Positions 12,445 through 16,084 of a stretch of DNA of 64,000 bases are shown here, one piece after another. Source of the DNA: Agromyces sp. Marseille-P2726. Its GTDB lineage: Bacteria; Actinomycetota; Actinomycetes; Actinomycetales; Microbacteriaceae. The notes beneath the pieces were generated by a model. That model worked only from the letters and a program-made list of their open reading frames with translations. It was not told the DNA's origin and did no database searches. The stretch is from positions 186,001-250,000 of the forward strand of contig NZ_CADDWM010000010.1 in assembly GCF_902809835.1 (NCBI RefSeq), in the 5' to 3' direction. Made by a program: the position numbers and the translations under genes. Position 1 is the first letter of the stretch; each line of letters starts with the position of its first letter.

Positions 12445-12813
12445 CTACTTCTCGACGGATGCCCCGTGCCGGCCGAGCCACTCGAGGATCACCGCCACGT
12501 GGTTGACGGTCGGATCGTGCGATGAGTAGAGCAGCGTGACGCGGTCGTGCTCTCGTCCCAGCTCGAGCAGCGCGTCGGTCGCGTCGGAATTCGCGTCGAG
12601 CTCGGCGACGTATCGGCCCACGAACTCGTCATGTCGATCGGGGCTCCCGTGCCACTCCTTGCGAAGGTCGGCAGACGGCGAAACCTCCTTGAGCCACTGA
12701 TCGAGGGCGGCGCGGTCCTTCGAGACACCGCGGGGCCACAGCCGATCGACGAGCACCCGGTAGCCGTCGGATGCCGCGGGCTCGTCGTACACGCGCTTCA
12801 TCGTGAACCCCAT
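12445..12813 (-). CDS. DUF488 family protein
   Basis: A 122-residue DUF488 protein of the short YeaO-like type, with the signature VLVDRLWPRGVSKD near residue 20, LRKEWHG in the middle and VTLLYSSHD near residue 95. The biochemical role is not established. Start ATG at 12813 or 12801 (MKRVYDEPA); the second is the family-like N-terminus. It is divergent from the oxidoreductase at 12860 with 46 bp between starts. Confidence 0.85.
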   Translation of the reverse strand: MGFTMKRVYDEPAASDGYRVLVDRLWPRGVSKDRAALDQWLKEVSPSADLRKEWHGSPDRHDEFVGRYVAELDANSDATDALLELGREHDRVTLLYSSHDPTVNHVAVILEWLGRHGASVEK

Positions 12814-12859
12814 ACCCGCCAGTCTGCCCGCGTTCGCGCCGGCTCGCTACGCTCGCCTC

Positions 12860-13816
12860 ATGCGCGCGATCGTCCTCGACCGCTACGGCCCGCCCGAGCA
12901 GGTCATGCGCCTCGCCGACGTGCCGCGGACGACACCCGCGCCGGGTGAGGCGCTCGTCCGCGTGGCCGCCGTCTCGATCAACTCGTGGGATGTCGACGTC
13001 GTGACGGGCGCATTGTTCACGAGGGTCGTGGCGCCGTTTCGTCCGAAGCATCAGATCATCGGGTCGGATGTCGCGGGCGAGGTCATCGCCGTCGGCCACG
13101 GCGTGACCCGTCATCGCCCGGGCGACCGGGTGTTCGGCGAGCTGACCGCTGCAGGCTGGGGCGGATTCGCGGAGTTCGTCGCGGCGCGCGAGGACGCCCT
13201 CGTGCCGCTCCCCACCGCGGTCGACGACGTCACCGCCGCGGCGTTGCCGCAGGCGGGGAGCATGGCGTTGCAGGCGCTCGTCGACCGCGACGCGCTCGAG
13301 GGGCGTCGTGTGCTCATCGTCGGCGCCGGCGGGGGAGTGGGCACGTTCGCACTGCAGCTGGCGACGCAGGCCGGAGCGCGCGTCGCCGTCATCGATCGGG
13401 CGGCGAAGCTCGACCGCCTGCGCGAGCTCGGGGCATCCGACGCCTTCGTCGCCGGCGCGATCCCGGTCGACGCCGGCGGCTTCGACCGCATCCTCGACGT
13501 GGTCGGCGCGCTGTCGCCCGCCCAGCATCGCGGTCTGCTCGCACCGGGTGGCTCGGCGGTCGCGATCGGCGGTCGTCCCCGACGCATCCTGGGCTATGCA
13601 CTGGCGGGTGCGCGCAAGGCCGACCGAGACGACGGTCGCAGGGTGCGTCTGCTCGCGGCAGTGCCGAACCGCGACCTGGCCGAACTCGCGAGCCTCGCTG
13701 CCGAGGGCTCGGTGCGGGCGATCGTCGACGGCACGCATCCGCTCCAGGCGGTGCCGCACCAGATTCAGCGACTGCGCGCGGGCGCGGTGTTCGGCAAGGT
13801 GGTCATCGTGCCGTGA
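12860..13816 (+). CDS. NADP-dependent zinc-free alcohol dehydrogenase / quinone oxidoreductase-like protein
   Basis: A 318-residue MDR-superfamily oxidoreductase. The N-terminal GroES-like domain (residues 1-115; ALVRVAAVSINSWDVDV, HQIIGSDVAGEV) is followed by a Rossmann domain with VLIVGAGGGVGTFALQLA at about 150. The Cys ligands of zinc alcohol dehydrogenases are missing, so it belongs with NADPH:quinone oxidoreductases; the substrate is unknown. There is no Shine-Dalgarno sequence: TACGCT (12848-12853) ends 6 nt before the ATG, which suggests a leaderless message. The stop is 11 bp before the rpsO inverted repeat. Confidence 0.87.
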   Translation: MRAIVLDRYGPPEQVMRLADVPRTTPAPGEALVRVAAVSINSWDVDVVTGALFTRVVAPFRPKHQIIGSDVAGEVIAVGHGVTRHRPGDRVFGELTAAGWGGFAEFVAAREDALVPLPTAVDDVTAAALPQAGSMALQALVDRDALEGRRVLIVGAGGGVGTFALQLATQAGARVAVIDRAAKLDRLRELGASDAFVAGAIPVDAGGFDRILDVVGALSPAQHRGLLAPGGSAVAIGGRPRRILGYALAGARKADRDDGRRVRLLAAVPNRDLAELASLAAEGSVRAIVDGTHPLQAVPHQIQRLRAGAVFGKVVIVP

Positions 13817-13886
13817 CGGTGCCTGCCCCGGGGTGCGTCGCGTACTCTTCGATGATCGCCTTCTTGACATCTGCTTCAAGTGCCAT
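13803..13886 (-). pseudogene. Inverted, truncated copy of the rpsO start
   Basis: The minus strand carries an exact copy of the rpsO ribosome binding site, ATG and first 19 codons ([11 protein letters not shown]...THPG). It then runs into unrelated sequence and stops after 27 codons, overlapping the end of the oxidoreductase gene. It lacks the rRNA-binding part of S15 and cannot be a functional second copy. It is a by-product of the inverted duplication at 13828-14130. Confidence 0.8.
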
Positions 13887-14130
13887 AGATGGGATCCCCT
13901 TCCTCTCGTTGCGCGCTGCCCCCGATGCGCCTCGCGGCCCCGTTCGGGAGAGACCGCGACGCGGCATCCGCTCTGCTAGACTCTTGAGGTTGCCGTGAAA
14001 CGGCCGCGCATCAAGAGAGCCCAGGCAGAAGGCCCCGGGCAGCGCGCAACGAGAGGAAGGGGATCCCATCTATGGCACTTGAAGCAGATGTCAAGAAGGC
14101 GATCATCGAAGAGTACGCGACGCACCCCGG
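13828..14130. repeat. Perfect 94-bp inverted repeat around the rpsO start
   Basis: Bases 13828-13921 are the exact reverse complement of 14037-14130, separated by a 115-bp spacer that holds the rpsO promoter region. The right arm contains the rpsO leader end, its ribosome binding site and the first 59 bases of the coding sequence. Both breakpoints are sharp, with unrelated sequence outside, pointing to a recent inverted duplication or an assembly artefact. Confidence 0.95.
13977..14004 (+). promoter_or_regulatory. rpsO promoter -10 and leader hairpin
   Basis: TAGACT at 13977-13982 sits in the context CCGCTCTGCTAG, which is repeated almost exactly before pnp (CCGCTCTGCTAGCAT). The leader then contains a small hairpin, GCCGT-GAA-ACGGC (13992-14004). 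CTCTTGA (13981-13987) could pair with TCAAGAG (14011-14017) if transcription starts further upstream. Ribosomal protein S15 controls its own mRNA through leader structures in many bacteria; whether this is such a site is inference. Confidence 0.5.
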
Positions 14131-14341
14131 TGACACTGGATCCCCTGAGGTCCAGATCGCGCTGCTCACGAAGCGCATCAAAGACCTCACCGAGCACCTG
14201 AAGGCGCACAAGCACGACCACCACTCGCGTCGTGGCCTGCTCCTTCTCGTCGGTCAGCGTCGTCGTCTGCTCGGCTACCTCGCCGACGTCGACATCAACC
14301 GCTACCGCTCGCTCATCGAGCGTCTCGGGCTGCGCCGCTAG
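14072..14341 (+). CDS. rpsO: 30S ribosomal protein S15
   Basis: An 89-residue S15 of full family length, with the conserved [32 protein letters not shown] and [10 protein letters not shown] segments that contact 16S rRNA. It binds early to the central domain of 16S rRNA during 30S assembly. The start is preceded by GAGAGGAAGGGG. In related genomes rpsO is usually close to pnp; here 13 kb of accessory genes lie between them. The first 59 coding bases are duplicated in inverse orientation upstream. A strong terminator follows. Confidence 0.98.
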
Positions 14342-14385
14342 GCGACGTACTCCGCGCGGCTCTCGACGACACCGCGAACTTCTTG

Positions 14386-14428
14386 CGAAGGCCCCACTGC
14401 TGACGACCAGCAGGCGGGGCCTTCGTCA
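14386..14428 (+). terminator. rpsO terminator
   Basis: A 10-bp perfect outer stem (14386-14395 with 14416-14425: CGAAGGCCCC / GGGGCCTTCG) with a further inner CTGCTG/CAGCAG pairing, 45 bp after the rpsO stop. It has only a short T content after it (TCATC). Confidence 0.8.
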
Positions 14429-14448
14429 TCAGAGGTTACGGTGGAAGC

Positions 14449-14931
14449 ATGCCCCGTCTCGCCCTCGCCCTGCGTGTCATCCTGCCCGCCTTCTGGCTCG
14501 GCGCACTCATCGCACTCTCGTTCATCGAGTCGCCCCTGAAGTTCCAGGCGCCGGGCATCACCATCCCCCTCGGCCTCGGCATCGGGCGCCTCGTGTTCAC
14601 CGCCCTCAACTTCCTCGGCGTGGTGATCGCCGCGGTGCTCACGCTCGTCAGCATCCGCCCGGCCGCCGGCCGCCTGTCGTGGTGGCTGCTCGGCGGAGCG
14701 TGGGCGGTCCTGCTCCTCGAGATCCTCGTCATCCGACCGCCGCTGAACGCCCGCACCGATCTCGTGATCGCCGGCGCCGAACCAGGGCAGTCGCCGTTCC
14801 ACTACATCTACATCGCGGCCGACGTGGTGCTCGTGGCGATCCTGATCGCGCTCACCGTGGTCAATGCACGACGCGTCATCCCGGCGGTGTCGCTCGGCGC
14901 CGCACGAGTCGGGGCCGACTCGCGCTCGTAG
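14449..14931 (+). CDS. Four-helix membrane protein of unknown function
   Basis: A 160-residue protein with four predicted transmembrane helices and the motif ALSFIESPLKFQAPG near the first helix, which recalls the DUF4149/TMEM205-like group of small membrane proteins. No catalytic residues are evident. There is no Shine-Dalgarno sequence; TACGGT (14437-14442) ends exactly 6 nt before the ATG, so it is probably transcribed as a leaderless mRNA. It stands alone between the rpsO terminator and a convergent gene. Confidence 0.8.
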   Translation: MPRLALALRVILPAFWLGALIALSFIESPLKFQAPGITIPLGLGIGRLVFTALNFLGVVIAAVLTLVSIRPAAGRLSWWLLGGAWAVLLLEILVIRPPLNARTDLVIAGAEPGQSPFHYIYIAADVVLVAILIALTVVNARRVIPAVSLGAARVGADSRS

Positions 14932-14952
14932 CGAGAGCGGACGCATGCCGCG

Positions 14953-15408
14953 TCAGATCGCACCCCGGTCGACCGCGGCGGCAATGCGGTCGAGCATATC
15001 CTCCGCGCCTCGACGGGCGAGGTCGGGCTCTTCAGTCGCCGGTGCTGCGAGGGTGTAGCTGAGGTCGGTGCCGCCGTCGTCGCGCTCGTTGAGCGTCACC
15101 GTGACGACCTCCTGCTCCTCGTCGAACGCGAGCACGACGCGCCGCGGAGCTTCGAGCTCGGCATAACGGAATCCGAACGGGATCTCGGAGCCATCGGCGT
15201 CGGCGATCATGACCGCATCCACTCGCCCTCCGGGCCGGGCGGTCACCTTCATGCGATCGGCCGGCGTGCGATAGCCCTCGACCACGAACCAGTGCGCGAG
15301 CCGAGCCGGTTCGACGAACGCACGGAAGAGGCGTGCTGCGTCGGCGTCGAAGCGTCGGCGGATCGAGAAGACCGGCTCATCCTCGGGAACCACGGCCATC
15401 GTCATCAC
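14953..15408 (-). CDS. SRPBCC-fold (AHSA1-like) protein
   Basis: A 151-residue protein of the START/Bet v1 superfamily, Hsp90-activator-like branch. The pattern is typical: FSIRRRFDADAARLFRAFVE at the start, LAHWF, a beta-sheet with VTARPGGRVDAVM and a long C-terminal helix (RGAEDMLDRIAAAVDR). These proteins form a hydrophobic ligand cavity; the ligand here is unknown. It is often annotated as a SRPBCC domain protein. Confidence 0.85.
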   Translation of the reverse strand: MMTMAVVPEDEPVFSIRRRFDADAARLFRAFVEPARLAHWFVVEGYRTPADRMKVTARPGGRVDAVMIADADGSEIPFGFRYAELEAPRRVVLAFDEEQEVVTVTLNERDDGGTDLSYTLAAPATEEPDLARRGAEDMLDRIAAAVDRGAI

Positions 15409-15520
15409 CCCCGCTCCACGCTACGCCGGAGCGGGTCAGGCTTCCATGCGTGTCAACCCGGTTGTCGCGCTTTCGGGCGCCTGCCTACGGTGGCCGCTCA
15501 TTCGAGAACGGGAGCAGCAC

Positions 15521-16084
15521 ATGGCTGAGCAGCTGACGGGCCGAAAGGTCGCCTTCCTCATGACCGACGGATTCGAGCAGGTCGAGTTCACGAAGCCCTG
15601 GGATGCGCTGAAGGGCGCCGGCGCGAACGTGATCCTCGTCTCGCCCGCCGAGGGCAGGGTGTTCGGCATGAACGCCGCCGACAAGGCGGACACGTTCGAC
15701 GTCGACCTCCACGTGAGCGAAGCGGATGCATCGGAGTTCGACGCGCTCGTCCTGCCCGGCGGCGTCGTGAACGCCGACCATCTGCGAATGGACGAGGCAT
15801 CCGTCGACTTCGTCCGGGCCTTCTTCGAACAGCAGAAGCCGGTCGCCGCGATCTGCCATGCCCCGTGGGTCCTGATCGAGGCGGGCGTCGCGCGTGGACG
15901 GAACCTCACCTCGTATCCGAGCCTGATGACCGACCTCGTCAACGCCGGTGCCGATTGGAGTGATGAGGAGGTCGTCGTCGACCAGGGGCTCGTGACGAGC
16001 CGGAACCCCGACGACCTGCCCGCGTTCATCGACAAGGCGATCGAGGAGATCGCCGAGGGCGTGCACGCCGGCCAGCGCGCCTAG
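15521..16084 (+). CDS. DJ-1/PfpI-family protein (type 1 glutamine amidotransferase-like)
   Basis: A 187-residue DJ-1/PfpI superfamily protein. The nucleophile elbow AICHAPWVLIEAG (Cys at about 114) follows the characteristic ALVLPGGVVNADHLR and KVAFLMTDGFEQVEF segments, with the conserved Glu in the first helix. Relatives act as general stress proteins, proteases or glyoxalase/deglycase-like enzymes; the exact activity cannot be read from sequence. Start ATG at 15521 follows GGGAG. It is convergent with the CGNR gene. Confidence 0.9.
   Translation: MAEQLTGRKVAFLMTDGFEQVEFTKPWDALKGAGANVILVSPAEGRVFGMNAADKADTFDVDLHVSEADASEFDALVLPGGVVNADHLRMDEASVDFVRAFFEQQKPVAAICHAPWVLIEAGVARGRNLTSYPSLMTDLVNAGADWSDEEVVVDQGLVTSRNPDDLPAFIDKAIEEIAEGVHAGQRA

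Follow-up and report, generated by a model that had tools for sequence, protein, structure and literature searches.

A perfect inverted copy of the rpsO start region in an Agromyces draft genome, probably a fold-back artefact

The analysed window is the 64,000-nt stretch G000:C10:186001-250000 in the 15-contig, 3.56-Mb assembly of Agromyces sp. Marseille-P2726; positions given without a contig (C) or locus (L) prefix are those of the window, and relatives carry G numbers. The gene for ribosomal protein S15 (rpsO) lies here downstream of an oxidoreductase gene, and between them stands a second copy, in inverse orientation, of the rpsO translation start. In the named collection, most of the proteins that match this S15 best are from Agromyces. 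The features are as follows.

12803-13816, plus strand: zinc-type alcohol dehydrogenase/oxidoreductase, the upstream gene (Pfam ADH_N, E 1.5e-16)
13828-13921, minus strand: left arm, comprising the inverted 3' half of the rpsO leader, ribosome binding site (RBS), start codon and 19 codons (from exact complementarity)
13922-14036, plus strand: spacer, comprising intergenic DNA, the extended -10-like TGCTAGACT (13974-13982, picked by eye and by conservation) and the 5' half of the rpsO leader
13989-14071, plus strand: conserved rpsO leader with a GGCCGCG element (alignment of 10 leaders)
14037-14130, plus strand: right arm, comprising the native 3' half of the rpsO leader, RBS, ATG and first 19 codons (82-99% identity in 109 relative loci)
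14072-14341, plus strand: rpsO, ribosomal protein S15, 89 aa (Pfam Ribosomal_S15, E 1.7e-38)

When the arms were compared within the window, all 94 of 94 positions proved complementary across a spacer of 115 nt, so the perfect inverted duplication described in an earlier, sequence-only reading of this DNA is exact. Its account of the contents also holds: the right arm comprises 35 nt of leader including the RBS and then, beginning with the ATG at 14072, 59 coding nucleotides (19 codons and 2 nt of the next), and the left arm does lie shortly after the preceding gene, 11 nt past the oxidoreductase stop codon. A minus-strand open reading frame (13803-14069) spans the left arm and would encode S15 residues 1-20 followed by AGTVTAR. 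No comparable inverted repeat with arms within 1 kb was found elsewhere in the 64-kb window, where the runner-up has arms of 28 nt at 82%; judged against this, the 94-nt arms are far above chance expectation. The contig that carries rpsO is 267 kb long and is unbroken at the inverted repeat.

The block common to relatives begins at about 13958, just ahead of the extended -10-like TGCTAGACT, and continues across the leader into rpsO. As a consensus scan of both strands of 12600-14600 gave no sigma-70-type site, we infer the position of the rpsO promoter from this conservation. It would lie between the arms, and ordinary rpsO mRNA would therefore be free of the left arm (as the sequence-only reading had supposed), with both arms present only in RNA reading through from the upstream gene. 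A terminator scan of the same region, again on both strands, found no terminator-like site. The leader is strongly conserved across 10 aligned sequences and contains GGCCGCG, which is also named in the mycobacterial S15 pseudoknot; in Mycobacterium smegmatis, repression by S15 was abolished when this element was exchanged (PMC8470358). A kissing-loop pseudoknot had been described earlier for an actinobacterial S15 leader (PMC4137082). The native Agromyces leader, which shares with the leaders described in these sources both GGCCGCG and a GC-rich downstream partner, is thus putatively of the S15-autoregulated kind, a likeness at the level of sequence, whereas the left arm plays no part in S15 regulation. 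An Rfam search of 13000-16000 returned no S15 leader, and its sole match, to mir-8515 (on the palindrome), reached 31.4 bits where the gathering score is 100 and was dismissed as chance.

How widely is the left arm found? Sixty Agromyces genomes (the present one and 59 others) were searched, and 57 of the others matched rpsO; G027 and G469, without rpsO among the matches listed down to about 1e-11, are outside the 57. Each of the 57 had, among the matches listed, exactly one arm-length match, rpsO itself, and the left arm was found in none (a left arm decayed to under roughly 70% could escape these searches). A broader search, of the present genome and 59 others (36 of the same genus), matched 58 of the 60 and placed a left arm in the present genome only. 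Across the family (398 genomes, 321 with matches), two arm matches were returned only for the present genome, G317 and G448, and in neither of the last two do the matches form an inverted pair: those of G317 are pieces at two contig ends, and those of G448 are two weak matches on one strand, separated by about 640 kb. Direct BLAST of the arm against 109 relative loci gave one match in each, compared with two in the present locus, and a perfect inverted repeat of at least 20 nt at the rpsO start was seen in none of the 109.

The oxidoreductase gene lies on the same strand as the rpsO block, at most 60 nt from it, in seven of the 57 genomes (G012, G018, G034, G452, G456, G459 and G464), none of which has the left arm; many further relatives have different DNA upstream of rpsO. 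In G012, whose upstream gene is 81% identical, 32 nt separate its stop codon from the promoter block, as against 53 nt here when the arm is subtracted. The spacer has the same orientation here as in relatives. The comparison with close relatives that the sequence-only reading had called for therefore came out negative for the left arm, even where the upstream gene is shared.

The rpsO case has company in the same assembly. Our scan covered 1,112,486 bases (31%) of it, with contig 10 complete and contig ends over-represented, and could detect pairs down to about 80% identity provided that an exact seed of 12-13 nt survived. It found four inverted pairs of at least 32 nt, with a pooled identity of 252/253 (singly 94/94, 59/60, 47/47 and 52/52), and no clearly decayed inverted copies in the 1.11 Mb. 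Besides rpsO, these are a 60-nt copy with one mismatch and a spacer of 58 nt at livF/livH-like genes for an ABC-transporter ATPase and a branched-chain permease (C10:135756-135815/135874-135933, equivalent to L119:15756-15933); a perfect 47-nt copy with a spacer of 55 nt in a glycosyl-hydrolase-16 (GH16) gene (C14:280790-280836/280892-280938, equivalent to L221:790-938); and a perfect 52-nt copy with a spacer of 106 nt that starts at the first base of contig C11 (1-52/159-210; L179:1-210). All three are within genes that are continuous in relatives. In G454 and G457 the livF tail ends in EELR, overlapping the start of livH; here the middle of the livF-like C-terminal tail is replaced by the inverted livH-like start, giving a stop inside the copy, and the EELR-stop end persists downstream. 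The GH16 copy lies in a Pro-Thr linker and puts the two halves of the gene in different frames, where G335 reads through; part of the arm also recurs at the site in direct orientation, indicating a complex event. At the start of C11, the inverted copy stands where relatives run on into a proline/glycine-rich coding stretch.

Left out of this count were a 57-nt, 86% pair, which is actually two tRNA-Val genes, and four pairs belonging to a dispersed GGTGGTCGAGTAGCG...GTATCGAGAC repeat. Inverted pairs of the dispersed repeat occur at C1:7726-8784, C1:49265-49542 and C14:18931-19036.

No inverted copy of at least 32 nt was found in 1.2 Mb of four relatives (400 kb each of G020 and G012, 200 kb each of G002 and G034). 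With the rpsO case set aside, the excess in the present genome is three in 1.11 Mb against none in 1.2 Mb, which is not significant (0.11, binomial). A copy of at least 28 nt is present at one of the 26 readable contig ends, that of C11.

Two other features of contig ends may be mentioned. C3 has from its first base a 17-nt, 94% inverted pair (1-17 and 87-103), which is shorter than that of C11 and may be chance, and the outermost 25 nt at the two ends of C15 are mutually reverse-complementary, with the ends of C14 and C8 alike, perhaps reflecting breaks at a multi-copy element.

The two rpsO junctions show matches of 6 nt (CTGCCC; inner) and about 3 nt (outer); both joints fall at a single CTGCCCC, and no loss of native DNA is visible. 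The inner junction of the livH copy has a match of 6 nt (CGCCGA) when G457 is taken as the model of the native DNA, or of 3 nt when G454 is, and no match was seen at its outer joint. A 7-nt microhomology considered for C11 was rejected, as relatives agree with at most five of the seven junction bases. Base composition at rpsO is ordinary, 17% of genome 40-mers having at least the GC content of the first 40 spacer bases, and so is folding, in which 31% of genome stretches equal or surpass the joined flanks; dropout of GC-rich DNA as the cause there finds no support. The corresponding GC standings of livH (84%) and C11 (29%) are likewise not extreme, and only GH16 is extreme (0.4%).

What, then, is the left arm? 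The sequence-only reading had suggested that it might tune rpsO by read-through, the left arm in RNA from the upstream gene hiding the rpsO start. The long duplex it foresaw is right on paper (the read-through RNA with both arms has a predicted fold of -289.7 kcal/mol, where shuffled sequences average -146.9); it would form once transcribed, and no terminator-like site was found in 12600-14600. Nevertheless, a conserved cis-regulatory RNA should be conserved or covary in relatives, and the left arm was found in none of the 57; rpsO, moreover, has a conserved leader putatively of the S15-autoregulated type. Since the spacer holds the putative promoter and half of that leader, and since only seven of 57 relatives have the upstream gene beside rpsO, none of them with the arm, a regulatory device of this kind seems very improbable, and the suggested tuning finds no support. 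We give still less credence to an invertible promoter, in which recombination between the 94-bp arms would flip the spacer and the rpsO promoter with it. Invertible promoters (compare PMC8748976) likewise lie between inverted repeats, as the putative promoter does here between perfect ones, but in the present case no recombinase site is known, the arrangement is conserved in none of the 57 relatives and the spacer is oriented as in relatives; moreover, the arms are pieces of rpsO, and a flip would sever an important gene.

The sequence-only reading had also concluded that an arm pair with no mismatch must be recent or artefactual, and both of these alternatives draw support, the artefact more of it. 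The first would be a very recent, functionless insertion into the chromosome by template switching: a nascent strand stalled at CTGCCC would jump about 200 nt forward onto the complementary strand, copy back through the rpsO start and return to the same point. This would account for the nearness and inversion of the copy, the matches of about 3 and 6 nt at the joints, the lack of native loss (53 nt here, 32 nt in G012) and the absence of the reverse-complement copy from sister lineages. Its youth is bounded by the lack of any mismatch in 94 nt, which caps divergence of the left arm at about 3% (95%), and the nearest adjacent empty site, that of G012, is about 19% off in the upstream gene. Template-switch mutations (TSMs) similarly yield a perfect nearby reverse-complement copy in one event (Monttinen & Loytynoja, 2022; PMC8794818), but the largest TSM-like pattern in the account consulted is 59 bp, compared with an arm of 94 nt here, as read from the assembly. 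Inverted repeats might persist in this genus if the hairpin nuclease SbcCD were lacking. SbcD scored above cut-off in one of 21 Agromyces genomes (G005, not the present one) and in eight of 14 controls, and SbcC in none of the 21 and one of the 14, the only strong SbcC-like match being in G005; because six (SbcD) and 13 (SbcC) of the 14 controls also miss the cut-offs, absence of SbcCD is a possibility at most. It can hardly be the sole cause, as G002, G012 and G020, likewise without SbcCD above cut-off, show no such copies in the samples scanned. Template switching would further require all four events to be of zero age, including three in genes that run on unbroken in relatives, one of which is at a contig end. 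Even so, the rpsO copy is cleaner than the other three and the one that could most plausibly be a true template switch, and its clean joints, its ordinary GC and folding, a rate excess that is merely suggestive and the possible lack of SbcCD lead us to keep a real insertion as a serious possibility, albeit a doubtful one. That all four copies are real, forming a burst of in-vivo snap-back insertions that copied, in reverse, DNA 55-115 nt away, perhaps tolerated because SbcCD is largely lost from the genus, and leaving the rpsO promoter flippable between the 94-bp repeats, we regard as improbable.

It seems most likely, from the overall pattern, that the rpsO left arm arose by fold-back during library preparation or assembly, and it is probably not part of the real chromosome. 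At the library or PCR stage, a strand with its 3' end in the stretch between the upstream gene and the promoter would fold onto itself, prime through a 6-nt match (CTGCCC pairing with GGGCAG of the rpsO leader) and copy its own rpsO start region; an assembler or gap closer would then join the end of the chimeric piece to the upstream gene, and in the true sequence 13827 would be joined directly to 13922. Here the library step and the gap closure are what we infer, while four near-perfect copies, one at a contig end and three inside genes, are what the assembly contains. We prefer an artefact to mutation because the four events stand at 252/253 with no clearly older ones, and because three are inside genes, one of these at a contig end; each is a near-identical inverted copy of adjacent DNA, as fold-back would give, with that of C11 at the very end of its contig. 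Illumina library preparation is documented to yield strands whose 3' end, through a hairpin, was extended with their own 5' part as template (Star et al., 2014; PMC3946424), and inverted-repeat chimeras are the commonest false chimeras in the nanopore ligation libraries treated in PMC13141652, with arms of more than 500 bp. The interrupted palindromes described by Star et al. resemble the present case in that a 3' end extends on its own 5' part after pairing by a short match, but they were in reads of degraded DNA, averaged 11 bp and were AT-rich, whereas here arms of 47-94 nt stand in the assembly of a GC-rich genome. Also against an artefact, rpsO joints at one native point without native loss are more simply explained by template-switch insertion than by gap closure, the contig is continuous over 267 kb, GC and folding at rpsO are ordinary, only one of 26 contig ends carries a copy, and the rate excess is only suggestive.

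Overall, the inverted repeat is present in the assembly as claimed, and is most likely a fold-back artefact or, failing that, a recent functionless insertion. If it is an artefact, then perfect inverted repeats with short spacers in draft genomes may mimic regulators and, through fold-back error, break genes; a cheap check would be to count such repeats assembly-wide and to inspect contig ends. If it is real, it would offer a good natural example of template switching having inserted a large piece of DNA next to an important gene.
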